NCBI GenBank assembly: GCA_004297485.1
Contig: SCTM01000041.1
Location: 40,641 to 104,640, forward strand
Source of the DNA: Rhodospirillaceae bacterium
GTDB lineage: Bacteria > Pseudomonadota > Alphaproteobacteria > Rhodospirillales > Rhodospirillaceae
DNA: 64,000 nt
Direction of reading: 5' to 3'
The notes under the pieces were generated by a model that had not been told where the DNA came from, made no database searches, and saw only the letters and a list, made by a program, of their open reading frames with translations. Of this stretch, positions 1-8,291 are shown piece after piece. The translations under genes and the position numbers were made by a program. Each line of letters starts with the position of its first letter. Positions within the stretch are counted from its first letter, which is position 1.

Positions 1-1158
1 TTGAATATGGGGCGCCACGTTGGAATTGTCGGGGTCGGGCAGACGCATCATTCGCGGCGGCGGACCGATGTCAGCCAGGCGGGGCTCGTGCGCGAAGCCG
101 TGGATCGCGCGCTAGCCGACGCGAATCTGTCCATGGATGATATCGATACCATTGTCGTGGCGACCGGGCCCGTCTTGTTTGCCGCCGTCAACCAGCCCGA
201 AAAATGGGTTGTGGATGCGATCGGCGCACAGCTGAAGCCAGTGGTGCGCGTGACAAGCGGTGGCGGTGCGGGCTTCGCAGGGGCACTGGCCGGCTATTAC
301 CAGGTTGCAGGAGGATTTGCTGACCGCACCCTCGTTGTCGCCTACGACAAGCTGTCCGAAGGCGCGCTGCAATATTCCATCTCCACGCTCTATGACCCCT
401 TCTGGGGGCGTGAATTTGCAGTCGGCATCATGGGATTCTCCGCCGCCTACTGGAGAGCGCGGATGGATGCGCTCGGCCATACCGAGAAGGCGGCGGCGAT
501 GGTTGCGGTCAAGAACCGCAAGAATGCGATGGCCAACCCCTATGCCCATGTCAAAAAGGAAGTGACCGTCGCGGAAGTGCTGGCCTCGAAGCCGCTGTGC
601 TGGCCCATCAAGCTCCTTGATGCGCCGCCGATTTCGGATGGGGCAGCCGCCATCGTCCTGGCGTCGGAAGACGTCGCGGCAAAATCGACCACTCGTCCGG
701 CCTGGATTCACGGCATTGCCTATTACTGCGAGGCAGACAACGCCGCGGAACGTTCGATGCTCCTGTCCGAACCGCTTGCCATTGCGGCGCGCCACGTCTA
801 TCGCGCGGCGGGCATCACAAATCCCCGCCGCCAGTTCGATGTCGTTGAAGTCCAAGAGCCATACACCTGCTTTGAACTCAGCTATTACGAAAGCCTCGGA
901 CTGTGCCCGCCCGGCGGCGCGGCCGAACTCATCGCATCAGGCGCGACACAAATCGACGGCGATATCCCGGTCAATCCCTCGGGGGGGGCCCTGGGGGCCA
1001 ATCCCATCGGCGCCGCCGGATTGATCCGCCTGATCGAAGGCGCGACGCAAGTCATGGGCCGCAACGAAAGTCACCAGATCAAAGATGCCAAGCTCGCGCT
1101 TGTCCAATCGGGCGGTGGCTGGGCGAACCTGCGGGGCTGCGCCGTGCTGGGCGCTTAA
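1..1158 (+). CDS. Thiolase-like (SCP-x/Ltp2-type) protein, probably an aldolase rather than a thiolase
   Basis: A 385-residue protein with the thiolase fold: N-terminal VGIVGVGQT, SDGAAAIVLAS near residue 211, and a C-terminal NPSGGALGANPIGAAG block. The catalytic cysteine of thiolases is absent: the nucleophile loop reads TSGGGAG (about 85-91). The GHPxG histidine is replaced by Asn (GANPIG). This matches thiolase-like members that pair with DUF35 proteins, such as Ltp2, which cleave a C-C bond by retro-aldol chemistry; that role here is inference. The next gene is a DUF35-like partner 12 bp downstream, and hydratase and dehydrogenase genes follow, so it is the likely last step of a side-chain shortening cycle. 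The frame opens with TTG at base 1, with an ATG at base 7, so the real start could lie outside the window. A run of eight G lies at 981-988. Confidence 0.85.
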   Translation: MNMGRHVGIVGVGQTHHSRRRTDVSQAGLVREAVDRALADANLSMDDIDTIVVATGPVLFAAVNQPEKWVVDAIGAQLKPVVRVTSGGGAGFAGALAGYYQVAGGFADRTLVVAYDKLSEGALQYSISTLYDPFWGREFAVGIMGFSAAYWRARMDALGHTEKAAAMVAVKNRKNAMANPYAHVKKEVTVAEVLASKPLCWPIKLLDAPPISDGAAAIVLASEDVAAKSTTRPAWIHGIAYYCEADNAAERSMLLSEPLAIAARHVYRAAGITNPRRQFDVVEVQEPYTCFELSYYESLGLCPPGGAAELIASGATQIDGDIPVNPSGGALGANPIGAAGLIRLIEGATQVMGRNESHQIKDAKLALVQSGGGWANLRGCAVLGA

Positions 1159-1170
1159 GGAGAATCTCGG

Positions 1171-2100
1171 ATGCACGCCGCTCCCGATACATATGCGATC
1201 GATCTTCCGGCGCTCCACAGCGAACTGGCAATGCCGTATACGCTGACGCCGGGGCGCGCAGCGGGAACTTTTCTCGCGGAAATCGGAAAGCGCCGGATCA
1301 TCGGCTCCCGCTTTGCTTCGGGCCTGACCATCGCACCCGCCGAGGACTTCTCGCCCACGGACGGCGAAAGCGATTTTGAATTCGTGGAAGTTCCCGCGAC
1401 CGGTGTTCTCACGGCCTTCACACAAGTCGGCGGCGACATCATCGGCCTGATTCGCCTGGACGGATGCGACAACGATTTCCCTCACCACATTGTCGAGGCG
1501 GAATTCGGCAAGCTGGCCACGGGCGTACGTGTTGAAGCAGTCTGGGCGGAGGGCGTGGAAAACTCGATCCTTGCGATCACGGGATTCCGCCCCGCCCCCG
1601 GCACGCCGATTGGCAAAGCACGTCCCGCCGGCGATACCGCCGCGCCGGTCACCGTGATCCTATATACCATGAAGCTGCACTACGAGCATGCATACGGCCC
1701 CTATTACGCGCGCCTCTTCGATGAAATCCGCACCAACCGAAGGATCATGGGCGTGCGAACGTCGGACGGTGATACGGCGCTCCTGCCGCCGCGCGAGATC
1801 GACGACATTACCCATCGCCGCACCGGCACCTGGAAAGCCTGCAAGGACACCGGGACGATACGGGCGTGTTCGATCATCAATATGGAGTTTTTGGGGCAGA
1901 CCCGCCCACCGCCCTATGTCTATGCGGAAATCGTGCTCGACGGGGCGTCGACGCGGTTGATCCACATGATCACCATCGACAGCGTTGAAGCAGCGAAGAC
2001 GCGAATCAAACCGGGAACGCGCGTCCGCGCAATCTGGCGCAAGGGCGAGCGCGAGGGTTCGTTGCGCGACATCGAGCGCTTTGAAGTGATCGATGGTTGA
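1171..2100 (+). CDS. Tandem DUF35-like (OB-fold) protein, zinc ribbons degenerate
   Basis: This 309-residue protein has two similar halves, each a rubredoxin-like segment followed by an OB-fold barrel, as in DUF35/ChsH2-type partners of thiolase-like enzymes. Half one covers about residues 25-145 and half two about 165-309 (it ends RVRAIWRKGEREG). The four zinc-binding cysteines that normally precede the barrel are missing from both halves: the first ribbon region has no Cys and the second has only isolated ones. The start ATG follows AGGAGA at good spacing. It sits directly after the thiolase-like gene and overlaps the next gene by 8 bp, so the pair probably forms one complex. DUF35 domains usually bind acyl-CoA; a doubled version is uncommon and may replace a heterodimer. 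Family assignment is fairly sure, function inferred. Confidence 0.72.
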   Translation: MHAAPDTYAIDLPALHSELAMPYTLTPGRAAGTFLAEIGKRRIIGSRFASGLTIAPAEDFSPTDGESDFEFVEVPATGVLTAFTQVGGDIIGLIRLDGCDNDFPHHIVEAEFGKLATGVRVEAVWAEGVENSILAITGFRPAPGTPIGKARPAGDTAAPVTVILYTMKLHYEHAYGPYYARLFDEIRTNRRIMGVRTSDGDTALLPPREIDDITHRRTGTWKACKDTGTIRACSIINMEFLGQTRPPPYVYAEIVLDGASTRLIHMITIDSVEAAKTRIKPGTRVRAIWRKGEREGSLRDIERFEVIDG

Positions 2101-2953
2101 GATGATGCCAACGCACGAGCCATTCACGATTACGTCGCTCCGACTGGGTGAACTTTACCTTCCGCACGGCGGCGGACTCATGCGCGACCCGATGCATTGT
2201 TGGCTTGTCCGCGGGAAGGGCATCAACATTCTCGTCGACAGCGGCATGGCCGACATCGCCACGGTCCAGGCGCGCATGAACGTCGGTGGTTTCGGCGGCG
2301 GGCACGCGGCGTTGCGCACCGCGTTAGCAAGCGAAGGATTGGGACCCGATGACATCCAATATGTCGTCTTGACGCACTTGCATTTCGACCACGCCGAAAA
2401 TCTCGACCTGTTCCCGAACGCCTGCGTCGTCGTGCAGCGCGACGAACTGTTCGCGGCGGTCGATCCGGTGCCGTCGCAACGCATTTATTACTGGCGCTCG
2501 ATAACCCAGGGCGTGCTTGAGCGCAAACGCCCGAACGCCCTGCGGTTGGTTGACGGCGATGTCGAGTTCTTCCCCGGATTCCAACTGTTGAAAGTGCCGA
2601 GCCATACGGAGGGGATGCAGGTGGCCGTGGTAACGACCAAAGCAGGGCGCGCCGCGTTGGTATCCGACCTGGGGGATCACTATCGATACTGGTTCCCGGC
2701 CGACCGGCGCGCGACCGCGCATCCGCAGCGGTCGCTCGCCGGGGCATTCCTGACCGGCAGCATACGCTCGTCGAGCGAACGCGACTGGCAAGCGGCCATG
2801 CAGCGTGTGGTCGACAACAGCGATATCGTCGTGCCGGCCCATGATTTCCGCATTCCCATGCGCATGCCCGAGCAGTGGTTTGCAATCCCCGAGTCGACCG
2901 ACGGCGATCTTGCACAGGTGCCGCCCCCGGCTCGCGATAATGCGGGGGCGTGA
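2093..2953 (+). CDS. Metallo-beta-lactamase-fold hydrolase
   Basis: A 286-residue protein of the metallo-beta-lactamase superfamily. The metal signature HLHFDH is at residues 95-100, preceded by a typical VVLT strand; a later SHTEG supplies the third-site His and VPAHDF a C-terminal ligand. The overall pattern is like N-acyl-homoserine lactonase/glyoxalase-II-type hydrolases, so it probably hydrolyses an ester, lactone or thioester linked to the pathway of its operon. There is no signal peptide, so it is cytoplasmic. The start overlaps the end of the DUF35 gene; ATG codons at 2102 and 2105 are equally possible and would shorten it by only three or four residues. The stop is one base before the start of the enoyl-CoA hydratase gene, indicating translational coupling. 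Substrate unknown. Confidence 0.85.
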   Translation: MVEMMPTHEPFTITSLRLGELYLPHGGGLMRDPMHCWLVRGKGINILVDSGMADIATVQARMNVGGFGGGHAALRTALASEGLGPDDIQYVVLTHLHFDHAENLDLFPNACVVVQRDELFAAVDPVPSQRIYYWRSITQGVLERKRPNALRLVDGDVEFFPGFQLLKVPSHTEGMQVAVVTTKAGRAALVSDLGDHYRYWFPADRRATAHPQRSLAGAFLTGSIRSSSERDWQAAMQRVVDNSDIVVPAHDFRIPMRMPEQWFAIPESTDGDLAQVPPPARDNAGA

Positions 2954-2954
2954 C

Positions 2955-3752
2955 ATGGCTTTTCAAACTCTTCTTTACGAAGTGAACGATCGCATCGCTA
3001 CCGTCACCCTCAATCGCCCCGAGGCAATGAATGCCACGACCGACGAAATGTATCGGGAGCTCTCGGCGTTGTGGCGAGATATAGCTGCCGACAAGAACGT
3101 CGCGTGCGTCATTCTAACCGGGGCCGGTCGCGGCTTCTGTGCGGGGGCCGATCTCAAGGCCCGCAAGGACGATATGAGCCCGCTGCAGCGGCGCGCGCGG
3201 CACCGCTGGATTCTCAAGGACGTTCTCGAGCCGCTGGTTCGTCTCGAAAAGCCTGTGATCGCGGCGGTTAACGGCGCGGCCGTGGGCGCAGGCTTCAACA
3301 TCGCGCTTGCCTGCGACTTCATCATCGCCAGCGATCAAGCGAGCTTTGTGCAGGCGTTCGCGCGAGTCGGTCTCGTCCCCGATCTGGGCGGCCTGTATCT
3401 GCTCGGCCGGGTTATCGGCATCAACAAGGCCAAGGAACTGTGTTTCACTGCGCGCAAGGTATCGGCGCAGGAAGCATCGACAATGGGTATCGTCAATCAT
3501 GTCGTCCCGCATGACCGGTTGCTCGCGGAGACTTGGGTGATCGCCGCGGCGATCGCAAAGGGCTCGCCAACCGCGCTGGCGATGACCAAGACGCTGCTGG
3601 ATAGAGGCACAAACGCTACGCTCGATCAGATGCTCGAATTCGAAAGCTACGCCACGACCGTCGCTTTTCTGACGCCCGAGTATGAGGAAGGCGTGCGGGC
3701 ATTTCGCGAAAAGCGCGCACCCGATTTCGCCGCGATTGCCGCAAAGGATTGA
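2955..3752 (+). CDS. Enoyl-CoA hydratase/isomerase family protein
   Basis: The 265-residue product has the length and layout of crotonases: N-terminal VTLNRPEAMNA, the oxyanion-hole segment GRGFCAGADL near residue 58, the second oxyanion strand AAVNGAAVGAGFNIALACD near 99-117, and a C-terminal helix FREKRAPDF. The active-site loop reads VGLVPDLGG, with Asp where classical hydratases carry Glu; this is closer to PaaG/isomerase-like members, so hydratase versus isomerase cannot be settled. The ATG at 2955 is one base after the upstream stop, and the next gene begins three bases after its own stop. It would act on the enoyl-CoA made by the acyl-CoA dehydrogenases of the same operon. Confidence 0.88.
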   Translation: MAFQTLLYEVNDRIATVTLNRPEAMNATTDEMYRELSALWRDIAADKNVACVILTGAGRGFCAGADLKARKDDMSPLQRRARHRWILKDVLEPLVRLEKPVIAAVNGAAVGAGFNIALACDFIIASDQASFVQAFARVGLVPDLGGLYLLGRVIGINKAKELCFTARKVSAQEASTMGIVNHVVPHDRLLAETWVIAAAIAKGSPTALAMTKTLLDRGTNATLDQMLEFESYATTVAFLTPEYEEGVRAFREKRAPDFAAIAAKD

Positions 3753-3755
3753 GCG

Positions 3756-4943
3756 TTGGACTTTTCATATTCCCCCGCCGAAACCGAGTTCCGCACGGCA
3801 TTGCGGTCGTGGCTTGCAGATGCCTTGCCCACCGGCTGGGGAGAGACGGTTTTCGAGCCGAAGGATGAAGACGAGCGCGCCCGATTTCGTCTCGACTGGG
3901 AGCGCAAGCTGCACGCCGGTGGATGGAGCGGGATCAACTGGCCCAGGGCGTACGGAGGCCGCGGCGCGACCCTGGTCGAGCGTGCCATTTTTGCCGAGGA
4001 AATGGCGCGCGCGCGCGCGCCGGAGGGACTGAATATCATCGTCGGACACAACCTCGTCGGCACGACATTGCTGCGGCACGGCACAGAGGCACAAAAGCAG
4101 CGATTCCTGCCCAAGATCATTTCGTCCGAGGAAGTCTGGTGTCAGGGCTTTTCGGAGCCGAACGCGGGGTCGGATCTGGCGTCGGTCCGGACGCGGGCTG
4201 AGCGGCGCGGCGACAAATTCATCGTCAACGGCCAAAAAATCTGGACCAGCTTCGCGCAATACGCCGACTGGTGTATTGCTCTGGTGCGTACTGATCCCGA
4301 GGTACGCAAACATGCCGGCTTGAGCTTTCTGCTGATCAACATGAAGACTCCGGGCATCACGATCCGCCCCTTGCGCCAGATTTCAGGGGAATCGGAATTC
4401 AACGAGATGTTTTTTGACGACGTCCAGGTCCCCGCCGAGAACATCGTCGGTGAGGTCAACGGAGGCTGGGCCATCGCCATGACAACACTGGCCTTCGAAC
4501 GCGGCCCCGAAGACGCCTTGGGACGGCAGATGCGGTTTAAGCAAGAGCTCGATGAGTTACTTACGACCCTCGCGAGCCTCAAACGGGACGGCGGCCACGT
4601 CATCGACGATCCTATCATCCGCCAGAAACTCGCCAAATCGATTACCGAAGTTGAGATCATGCGGCTTAACGCGCTGCGCAGTATCAGCAGATATCTGAAT
4701 GGTGAGGATCGTGGGCCGGATGTATCGCTCATGAAGCTCTTTTGGAGTCATGCCGCACAGCGCTTGTACGATACCGCGCTCGAGGCACTCGGCCCGCTCG
4801 CGCCGCTTTGGGGAAGCGCCGCGACCGCAGGCGGTCGGTTCCAGTTGAGCTGGCTCCAGTCAAAGGCCTTTACCATCTATTCGGGCTCGTCCGAAATCCA
4901 ACGCAATATCATCGGCGAGCGCATGCTCGGCTTACCGCGTTAG
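3756..4943 (+). CDS. Acyl-CoA dehydrogenase, alpha-type partner
   Basis: This 395-residue flavoprotein has the three-domain acyl-CoA dehydrogenase layout: N-terminal helices, the beta-domain motif GFSEPNAGSDLASV near residue 130, KIWTSFAQYADW near 160, and a C-terminal helical domain ending SGSSEIQRNIIGERMLGLP. The Y-E catalytic glutamate of short- and medium-chain enzymes is replaced by Ser in YSGSSEIQ; the LAFERGPE segment near 247 may supply the base, as described for FadE26/28-type enzymes. Translation starts at TTG 3756, which fits the conserved N-terminus DFSYSPAETEF. A second, shorter dehydrogenase follows 9 bp downstream, the arrangement of alpha2-beta2 acyl-CoA dehydrogenases used on bulky ring-bearing acyl-CoAs. 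A (GC)8 tract lies at 4005-4020. Confidence 0.88.
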   Translation: MDFSYSPAETEFRTALRSWLADALPTGWGETVFEPKDEDERARFRLDWERKLHAGGWSGINWPRAYGGRGATLVERAIFAEEMARARAPEGLNIIVGHNLVGTTLLRHGTEAQKQRFLPKIISSEEVWCQGFSEPNAGSDLASVRTRAERRGDKFIVNGQKIWTSFAQYADWCIALVRTDPEVRKHAGLSFLLINMKTPGITIRPLRQISGESEFNEMFFDDVQVPAENIVGEVNGGWAIAMTTLAFERGPEDALGRQMRFKQELDELLTTLASLKRDGGHVIDDPIIRQKLAKSITEVEIMRLNALRSISRYLNGEDRGPDVSLMKLFWSHAAQRLYDTALEALGPLAPLWGSAATAGGRFQLSWLQSKAFTIYSGSSEIQRNIIGERMLGLPR

Positions 4944-4952
4944 GGGGCGTCC

Positions 4953-6083
4953 ATGAACTTCGGATTCGACGGAACGCAGCGCAGCTTGGGCGATACCGTC
5001 GCGCGCCTGTTGCAAAGCGTTCCGGCGCTGACGGCACCCGATCTTGATCCGCGCCAGAGCGACAGAGTCTATGAAATGCTTGCCGAGTGTGGATTGTTCG
5101 CGCTGCTGGTGCCCGAAAGCTGCGGTGGCACAGGTCTGTCGCTTGTGGATACCGCTCTTGCGGTCGAAAGTCTGGGCGGTGGTCTTGCACCGCCCGCGGT
5201 CATTGCAACCCTTGCTGCAACCGATGCCATTGTCCGTCATGGCCATGAGGGCCAGCGGCGGGAACTCTTGCCAAAAATCGCATCGGGCGAGTTGAGGGTT
5301 GCCATCGCGCTACTTGAGCCGGGATGCGGCTACGATCCTCATACGATGAAAAGCACGATTGCGAACGGTCGCCTGACCGGGCGCAAACTGCTGGTGCCGG
5401 GCGCGGCGGAAGCGGACCTGCTGCTCATCGTCACCGGGTCCGGCGGCAAGCCGACGCTGGCATTACTCGATGCACGATCGGGCGGCGTTGCCACTCAGGT
5501 TCAGGAGAGTCTCGATCCGACCGCTGATTTCCACGAGGTGGTTCTGAAGAATGTCGCCGTGAGGCCGGAGTCGCTGTTGGGTGGCGCATCGCCGGAGCGG
5601 GCCGTCGAGCGGCTCATGGATGTCTCGGCCACGCTCCATGCCGGAATGCTCATGGGTATTGCCGCGCAGATGCTCCACAAGACGGTTGAATACGCAAAAA
5701 TCCGCGTCCAGTTCGGGCAGGCCATCGGCGCATTCCAGGCGATCAAGCATCGCTGCGCAGACATGGCTGTTGCGGTTGAGGCGGGCCAATCCGCGGCATA
5801 CTACGCCTTCTGGGCGATTGCCGAGGACAGTTCAGACTCTCCGCGCGCCGCCGCGATGGCCAAGAGCTATTGCGGTGAGGTGGCGCGCATGGTGTGCAAT
5901 GAGGCGATTCAGGTTCATGGCGGCATGGGCTTTACGTGGGAGCTTGGGCTGCACCGCTATCTGCGGCGTGCCAAGGTTCTAGAGCACGCATTTGGCGAGG
6001 GCGCTTGGCACAATGAGAGAATTGTGGCGGCGACGCTGGCTGCGCTCATACCGGAGACAAACCGCCAGTGGGAAGTTGCCTAG
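4953..6083 (+). CDS. Acyl-CoA dehydrogenase, beta-type partner
   Basis: A 376-residue acyl-CoA dehydrogenase family protein: N-terminal helical domain (LVPESCGGTGLSLVDTALAV), a shortened beta domain, and a C-terminal domain with QFGQAIGAFQAIKHRCADMA near residue 250 and QVHGGMGFTWELGLHRYLRR near 325. The beta domain is less conserved than in the partner encoded just upstream, and its flavin loop is weak, as seen in the non-catalytic or half-site subunit of heterotetrameric FadE pairs. It is the last gene of the operon that begins with the thiolase-like protein; the following 150 bp contain a strong palindromic repeat and then a convergent TetR gene. It probably acts with its neighbour in one alpha2-beta2 enzyme; this is inference from gene order. 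Confidence 0.86.
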   Translation: MNFGFDGTQRSLGDTVARLLQSVPALTAPDLDPRQSDRVYEMLAECGLFALLVPESCGGTGLSLVDTALAVESLGGGLAPPAVIATLAATDAIVRHGHEGQRRELLPKIASGELRVAIALLEPGCGYDPHTMKSTIANGRLTGRKLLVPGAAEADLLLIVTGSGGKPTLALLDARSGGVATQVQESLDPTADFHEVVLKNVAVRPESLLGGASPERAVERLMDVSATLHAGMLMGIAAQMLHKTVEYAKIRVQFGQAIGAFQAIKHRCADMAVAVEAGQSAAYYAFWAIAEDSSDSPRAAAMAKSYCGEVARMVCNEAIQVHGGMGFTWELGLHRYLRRAKVLEHAFGEGAWHNERIVAATLAALIPETNRQWEVA

Positions 6084-7322: not shown

Positions 7323-8213
7323 TTATCTTCCCTTAAGATAGCCTTCCGCGATCTCGTCGAGCCGCCGCTGCATACCGTCGATACCATAGTCGGGCGCCGT
7401 CCCTTCCTTGCCGGGACAAAACAATACCAGGCGATGGGCCCCTGCGGCGGCATAGTCATCTAGAATCTGACAGGGCTCGGCATCCTCGTAGACGAGGCAG
7501 CTAATCTCGATCTCGCGGAAGTCGCGCCCCTGTTTTTCACATTCCCGTTTGATGAAAGCGATCCGCTCGGCGAGGACCTTGGTCGTCATGAGGCCGCGGC
7601 CGGTACCCGGCATCCAACCGCTTCCATAAGTCGCCACGTCCTTCAGGGCCGCATCCACGAAAGCGCCAATATGGATCGGCGGATGCGGCTTCTGAACAGG
7701 CTTTGGATATTGGCGCACGAGGGGAAAGCTCACGAACTCGCCTTCATGACTGGCGTCGTCCTCGGCCCACAGCTTGATCATCGCCCGGACATAATCCCGC
7801 GTCACCCCCCAGCGGCGCGAAAAATCAATGCCGAACAACGCCGCTTCTTCCGCGTTCCATCCGGACCCGATGCCGAATATGAAGCGCCCGTTGGAATAAC
7901 GATCCAGGGTCGCAACCGTTTTTGCGAGCTCCAGGGGATGATGCTCGGCGACAAGACAGATGGCTGTGCCGATCTTGATCCTGGTCGTGACGGCCGCGGC
8001 GAAGGATAGCGAGACGAATGGCGCCGGCAGTTCATAGTAAAAATCCGGCAACTCGAGGCCGGACGCCGACGGCCGCTTCGATTCCCTACCGACCGGGACA
8101 GCGGTGTGCTCGCCGACGAAAAATGACTCAAATCCCCGCTCCTCACAGGCGCGTGCCATGGTCGCGGGGTCAGCTGTCTTATTGCTCAATGGTGCGACTA
8201 CGCCGATCTTCAT
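7323..8213 (-). CDS. Luciferase-like (F420-type) monooxygenase/oxidoreductase
   Basis: A 296-residue TIM-barrel protein of the luciferase-like family. It opens with KIGVVAPLSN, has FESFFVGEHTAVP near residue 30, IKIGTAICLVAEHHPLELAKTVATLD near 80-105, and GRFIFGIGSGWNAEE near 110-125, the flavin/F420 phosphate-binding loop. The pattern resembles LLM-class F420-dependent oxidoreductases; whether the cofactor is FMN or F420 cannot be read from sequence. The ATG at 8213 is preceded by GGTGAGGACG and matches the family N-terminus, so the longer frame starting at 8264 is not used. The gene is flanked by TetR and MFS genes on the same strand, suggesting a role in oxidising or reducing a catabolic or xenobiotic substrate. 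Confidence 0.85.
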   Translation of the reverse strand: MKIGVVAPLSNKTADPATMARACEERGFESFFVGEHTAVPVGRESKRPSASGLELPDFYYELPAPFVSLSFAAAVTTRIKIGTAICLVAEHHPLELAKTVATLDRYSNGRFIFGIGSGWNAEEAALFGIDFSRRWGVTRDYVRAMIKLWAEDDASHEGEFVSFPLVRQYPKPVQKPHPPIHIGAFVDAALKDVATYGSGWMPGTGRGLMTTKVLAERIAFIKRECEKQGRDFREIEISCLVYEDAEPCQILDDYAAAGAHRLVLFCPGKEGTAPDYGIDGMQRRLDEIAEGYLKGR

Positions 8214-8291
8214 CGTCCTCACCTTCACCCGGCCAATCAAATCCAATTGGGATAGTAAGCGCACCTGTCACGGGCGCAACACGGTAAGATG

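Follow-up and report, generated by a model that had tools for sequence, protein, structure and literature searches.

What might be the function of a thiolase-like protein that carries neither catalytic residue of a thiolase, and that is encoded next to a doubled DUF35 protein? The question is raised by the first genes of the window, which is the whole stretch of 64,000 nucleotides analysed here. An earlier note on this DNA had proposed a variant retro-aldolase complex related to Ltp2/ChsH2 of steroid side-chain removal, in which one fused protein supplies two DUF35 units. The features concerned are listed by window position.

1..4, plus strand: last bases of the gene of the Ltp4-like partner (about 375 aa), which ends at window base 4
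7..1158, plus strand: gene 1, Ltp3-like thiolase-fold protein of 383 aa, with its ATG at window position 7
253..273, plus strand: TSGGGAG loop in the place of the catalytic-Cys loop, with Gly86 at the Cys column (alignment)
853..864, plus strand: QEPY (Q283-Y286), where Ltp2 has YDHF, Sal has YDCY and SCP2 thiolases have HDCF (alignment)
994..1011, plus strand: GANPIG instead of GHPxG, with Asn332 at the His column (alignment)
1171..2100, plus strand: gene 2, two fused DUF35 units of 309 aa in all, without zinc ribbon (Pfam, model)
1213..1593, plus strand: DUF35 half 1, about residues 15-141, ribbon region without Cys (strands and helix of the model, from E15-25 to E136-141)
1657..2094, plus strand: DUF35 half 2, about residues 163-308, ribbon Cys set gone (model, Cys comparison)
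2105..2953, plus strand: metallo-beta-lactamase-fold (MBL-fold) protein, the next operon gene, kept in most of the clade
2955..3752, plus strand: crotonase/enoyl-CoA hydratase, not EchA19 (212 bits against a cut-off of 400)
3756..4943, plus strand: acyl-CoA dehydrogenase, PimC-like large subunit
4953..6083, plus strand: acyl-CoA dehydrogenase, PimD-like small subunit

The gene 1 protein matched the Pfam families Thiolase_C_1 (2e-29) and Thiolase_N (2.5e-8). Its AlphaFold single-chain model (pLDDT 86.7, pTM 0.90) was closest in a Foldseek search to thiolases, benzoylsuccinyl-CoA thiolase, Ltp2 and Sal, with TM scores of 0.84-0.92. The nucleophilic Cys and the GHPxG His were sought in the alignment and neither was found in this protein, as the earlier note had read from the letters; Gly86 and Asn332 occupy their columns. 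The same alignment recovered both residues in 7yvy, 6hsj and the genome's own paralogues L002 and L003. Residues G86 and G89 are invariant in the alignment, and all Ltp3-like proteins, as well as Ltp2, have a Gly at the nucleophile column. Sal also has Gly at the former nucleophile position (PMC12329534).

The Ltp3-like alignment was scanned against 84,980 genomes, which gave 80 loci. Seven of them share 80-90% identity with the window (six alphaproteobacteria, mostly sphingomonads, and one Rhizobacter MAG) and one truncated locus shares 75%; the others drop to 46% and below and come mostly from actinobacteria, together with Myxococcota and other lineages. The features of the window genes are repeated in the seven close relatives, except for the zinc ribbons of the Rhizobacter MAG (L036). 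Additional searches of 297 genomes of the order, and of 385 and 399 genomes at the class and phylum levels, added only a single genome to the close clade (L111, 85% identity), its ninth member, with the same features. The window clade is therefore rare and patchy.

A second degenerate thiolase-like gene lies directly upstream of gene 1, mostly beyond the window (L015 9517-10644) and thus outside the view of the earlier note. Its product likewise lacks the thiolase Cys and His. The unit therefore consists of three genes, coding for an Ltp4-like protein, an Ltp3-like protein and a double DUF35 protein. The Ltp4-like partner is directly upstream in all 80 loci, and DUF35 was found beside the cassette in 78 of them, as a fused double protein (62 loci), as two separate genes (11) or as one detected unit (5). 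The two exceptions are at contig ends: the contig of L041 stops within the gene, and that of L092 begins 1.3 kb upstream. By this comparison, the doubled DUF35 protein corresponds to the two separate DUF35 genes of other bacteria, which bears out the reading of one fused chain as two units. The repeated pairing of two thiolase-like with two DUF35 units, fused or not, points to one DUF35 unit per thiolase-like subunit, as inferred from gene content.

Other forms of the cassette were also observed. In Cupriavidus necator p1 (L030 6760-10206), two thiolase-like genes are followed by two separate DUF35 genes, whose products both have complete zinc ribbons. In Rhodococcus qingshengii pLP1, the Ltp4-like partner is cut down to 304 aa (L029 8090-9004), and the Ltp3-like protein has the motif YAPF (L029 9001-10179) with a single zinc-ribbon DUF35 alongside; this is a different, reduced version of the cassette.

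The phylogenetic tree was reconstructed from 87 sequences. The Ltp3-like (SH-aLRT 98) and Ltp4-like (99) proteins are sister clades, jointly separate from the thiolases and from the Ltp2/Sal clade, and the window clade is nested within each of them with a support of 100. The comparison thus places the two thiolase-like proteins as ancient sister paralogues, in a clade of their own away from the active thiolases; the grouping with active thiolases that would have refuted the earlier note was not seen. In the actinobacterial loci, the thiolase-like pair scored over the cut-offs of PRK07937 ('lipid-transfer protein') and PRK08313. Moreover, in a Nocardia relative the DUF35x2-Ltp4-Ltp3 operon is divergent from a gene of the TIGR03559 F420_Rv3520c family (508 bits, cut-off 335), and the cassette of a Tsukamurella relative adjoins an EchA19 equivalog (428 bits, cut-off 400). 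The gene order in M. tuberculosis is Rv3520c-Rv3521-Rv3522(ltp4)-Rv3523(ltp3) (PMC6429209), and Rv3521 is also described as adjoining ltp4 (PMC9782250). The actinobacterial orthologues were equated with the ltp3 and ltp4 of M. tuberculosis and Rhodococcus through gene order, neighbours and family models only. Ltp3-Ltp4 has been described as a heteromeric aldol-lyase (PMC6678751). PMC6273163 and PMC6593523, both citing Wilbrink et al. 2012, state that C24-branched sterol side chains require Ltp3 and Ltp4; the same two sources also cite ltp3 and ltp4 as indispensable for one particular step of catabolism in Rhodococcus.

The make-up of the cassette and the actinobacterial neighbours show that the window cassette is of the Ltp3/Ltp4 type, not of the Ltp2/Sal type. 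In both systems, neighbouring genes encode two distinct thiolase-fold subunits that lack the Cys, and these are accompanied by a doubled DUF35 protein (of the Rv3521 type in actinobacteria). The two systems also share the tree clades, the Gly at the nucleophile column and the Asn at the GHPxG His column. However, the identity is only about 40-46% for the Ltp3-like protein and about 30% for the Ltp4-like and double DUF35 proteins. The motif Y-V-P-F of the Ltp3 proteins is Q-E-P-Y in the window, and H-A-P-F of the partner is S/G-x-x-S; the second zinc ribbon is lost, the gene order is altered, and there is no EchA19 or Rv3520c-type gene. The window proteins scored below the NCBIfam cut-offs (gene 1 protein, PRK08313, 362 bits against 514; partner, PRK07937, 173 bits against 419). 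With the different motif, this indicates a variant of Ltp3-Ltp4, not Ltp3 and Ltp4 proper. Judged from the sequences, the cassette branched off from the Ltp3-Ltp4 enzymes and is both rare and conserved. An LLM-class oxidoreductase near the operon (window 7323-8264) was considered as an Rv3520c counterpart and dropped; it belongs to the TIGR03619 family, not TIGR03559.

The other known systems are more distant. The earlier note had linked the pair to the Ltp2-type aldolases of steroid side-chain removal. Ltp2-ChsH2 (PDB 6ok1) does share with the window the thiolase fold, the Gly at the Cys column and a DUF35 partner; but it has Tyr294, Tyr344, a four-Cys zinc ribbon and one kind of thiolase-like subunit, and it falls in a separate tree clade, so that the heteromeric Ltp3-Ltp4, and not Ltp2/ChsH2, is the nearest known system. 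Sal-Shy (PDB 9myr) likewise has Gly at the Cys column and a DUF35 partner, with an altered zinc site; whereas its Tyr302 and Cys304 are missing in the window, and Shy has a MaoC domain where the window has the second DUF35 unit. The benzoylsuccinyl-CoA thiolase BbsAB (7pxp) and the archaeal thiolase/HMGS/DUF35 complex (6esq) have the thiolase-DUF35 architecture and fold scores close to those of the window. These two are described as working thiolases, unlike the window proteins without Cys and His.

The gene 2 protein was matched by Pfam OB_ChsH2_C (PF01796) in two stretches, the best of which (residues 221-290) is inside half 2; a Pfam search of the protein for zf-ChsH2 gave no match. In the single-chain model (pLDDT 89.4) the two halves are alike, and the top PDB matches in the fold search were DUF35 chains of thiolase and aldolase complexes (6ok1, chain 6ok1_B; 5m3k/9skh; 9myr; 3irb; 6esq), with PhlB and the DUF35 of Sal-Shy among the best. 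A zinc-type Cys set was sought in the ribbon stretches, where a single Cys was found in half 2 and none in half 1; this agrees with the earlier description of two DUF35-like halves without zinc-binding residues. Four Cys remain in each half of the deepest clade member (L036) and of the Anaerolineae relative L039. Most actinobacterial relatives no longer have the Cys set in half 1, and their half 2 retains three or four Cys; within the window clade, all members except L036 have lost both sets. By this pattern, the loss of the ribbons was progressive and secondary.

The active site is where the window clade departs most from its relatives. The base Tyr of the thiolase-fold aldolases is Tyr294 in Ltp2 (YDHF) and Tyr302 in Sal (YDCY), and the second catalytic residue is Tyr344 in Ltp2 or Cys304 in Sal (PMC12329534). 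Among the Ltp3-like proteins outside the window clade, the first motif residue is Tyr in 78 of 78 (77 aligned and L112); in the window clade it is Gln, within QEPY, in 9 of 9 members (8 aligned and L111), a change at the HDCF/YDHF motif that the earlier note does not mention. At or beside the Tyr344 and Cys304 sites, the alignment places Asn332 and Pro285. By these alignments, the window clade lacks the known catalytic residues of both the thiolases and the aldolases. The change from Tyr to Gln removes the only residue common to the characterised thiolase-fold aldolases, and the activity may therefore be lost or different. Since the Ltp2/Sal catalytic residues are absent, 'retro-aldolase' is not readable from the active site; what stands of that proposal is the grouping with described aldol-lyases. 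Cys288, two residues past QEPY and invariant in the clade, is the one candidate for a displaced Cys.

The substitutions might instead indicate a decarboxylase or another oxyanion-hole enzyme, in which the amides of Gln283 and Asn332 would assist the removal of a beta-carboxyl group or a proton shift in an acyl-CoA. Q and N are present at both oxyanion-type columns in all clade members. Ketosynthase variants without the nucleophile are known to decarboxylate. The nucleophile-less TbSLP also weakly decarboxylates malonyl-CoA; CtSal, by contrast, does not decarboxylate it (PMC12329534). Together with the resemblance of the operon to a dehydrogenation-hydration-cleavage sequence, this makes such an enzyme unlikely.

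Pairwise comparison within the clade gave a dN of about 0.08-0.18 for the Ltp3-like gene at a dS of about 1 or above, where dS is saturated and dN/dS rough. The dN of the partner and double DUF35 genes was 0.2-0.6, values that are indicative only for the same saturation. The Ltp3-like gene is the slowest-evolving of the three, which is indicative of strong purifying selection. This bears on the proposal that the Ltp3-like subunit is dead and that catalysis falls to the Ltp4-like partner, through the Asp of ADPI and the acidic residues in the RVEEDG loop. These loop acids are nearly invariant among Ltp4-like proteins (E79 and D85 invariant, E83 in at least 90%), and ADPI is present in most window-clade partners; however, the Ltp3-like protein is much better conserved than the other two, which would be odd for a dead subunit. 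The HDCF-motif site of the clade's partners reads S/G-x-x-S, against the H-A-P-F type in actinobacteria. The loop Glu was also considered as a replacement of the Cys, as an ungapped count hints. MAFFT and HH-align place a 3-residue gap there, so this candidate was rejected, and the uncertain register of the loop against the Cys column also counts against catalysis by the partner, which we regard as quite unlikely. A non-catalytic scaffold that binds lipids or CoA esters would explain why neither thiolase-like subunit has a recognisable catalytic set. Such a scaffold is highly improbable in view of the strong purifying selection, of a motif that is invariant across distant hosts, and of the ltp3 and ltp4 requirement in Rhodococcus as cited in the two sources above (PMC6273163, PMC6593523).

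The operon order in the clade is Ltp4-like, Ltp3-like, double DUF35, MBL-fold protein, crotonase and the PimC/PimD-like acyl-CoA dehydrogenase pair; the Rhizobacter MAG operon is without the MBL gene. In most members the cassette is preceded by divergent genes for an SDR, a thiolase and an acyl-CoA ligase. No match was found in an Rfam search upstream. The operon reads as activation, dehydrogenation, hydration and then C-C cleavage.

A steroid pathway was considered, prompted by the KstD-like and two Rieske oxygenase genes close upstream in the window's genome, where P450 genes also lie upstream. Among the seven related clade-carrying genomes, a KstD of comparable strength was found in only one, on a different contig, and an Ltp2-type aldolase was found in none of the seven at the threshold used. 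An Ltp2-like protein was present in all three actinobacterial carriers. Because the steroid markers are not common to the relatives, the steroid substrate is doubtful and was dropped, and with it the steroid side-chain link of the earlier note; the substrate of the cassette is probably not a steroid. In the window's own organism, which has these steroid-type genes close by and Ltp2-like genes elsewhere, the substrate may still be a steroid. The KstD-like and Rieske genes would favour a steroid side-chain aldolase of the Ltp2/Sal type; but the distinct clade, the missing Tyr and second acid, the presence of two thiolase-like subunits instead of one, and the lack of a close KstD in six and of a close Ltp2-type aldolase in all of the seven related genomes make it very unlikely.

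The genome has 13 thiolase-like and 10 DUF35 loci in total. Ltp2-like paralogues with YDHF and YENF are found at G000:C101:28997-30103 (L009, best PDB match 6ok1) and C244:1905-3038 (L004), with DUF35 genes nearby. In a protein of 493 aa (L016, G000:C348:3353-4834, minus strand), an HMG-CoA-synthase/KAS III-like domain is fused to a DUF35 OB fold, and the SCP2-type thiolase next to it (G000:C348:2138-3343) has retained Cys, HDCF and GHP; this locus resembles the archaeal HMGS-thiolase-DUF35 complex, but is fused. Two other thiolase-like proteins (L010, G000:C120:10472-11533; L012, C269:7007-7990) keep the nucleophile Cys and have QDTD/QDTE at the HDCF site and GEP for GHP.

The reading preferred here is a heteromeric complex of the Ltp3-Ltp4 kind that catalyses retro-aldol C-C cleavage without the Tyr, probably on a non-steroid substrate; we give it about an even chance. 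The window would carry two of the three genes for this thiolase-fold complex. The trio architecture is well supported by comparison, and its proteins would assemble into a single alpha-alpha'-beta-beta' unit, in which the two thiolase folds make a pseudo-symmetric heterodimer. One DUF35 unit would clasp each subunit, and the fused protein would stand in for the pair of DUF35 chains found in the heterotetramers of Ltp2 and Sal. The complex might work downstream of the CoA ligase, the acyl-CoA dehydrogenase pair and the crotonase of the operon, and cut a C-C bond of a beta-hydroxyacyl-CoA through retro-aldol chemistry. The beta carbon would probably be branched, and so not oxidisable for ordinary thiolysis. 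This chemistry is inferred from the family and the operon, and is weakened by the loss of the Tyr. As the base Tyr is replaced by Gln in the clade, the proton-transfer residues must differ; the candidates are Tyr286, Cys288 and the conserved acids of the partner's RVEEDG loop, and Gln283 may act as an oxyanion-hole amide, like the Asn in NEAF thiolases. More tentatively, these proteobacterial heterodimers, with the double DUF35 clamp, the Tyr-to-Gln change and mostly lost ribbons, might cleave C-C bonds in a non-steroid pathway by a new catalytic set, unlike that of the thiolases, Ltp2, Sal or Ltp3.

These comparisons also bear on the actinobacterial enzymes. The 'hypothetical' Rv3521-type protein, for which DNA binding was once proposed (PMC9782250), appears to be a fused DUF35 pair that would clasp the Ltp3-Ltp4 heterodimer; this link was not found in the literature searched. 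Such a reading would offer a structural view of the Ltp3-Ltp4 sterol aldol-lyase. The window clade may also be regarded as a natural experiment, in which the complex is kept while the supposed catalytic Tyr is gone, as are both ribbons in most members, and through which the roles of the Tyr and of the zinc ribbons become testable.
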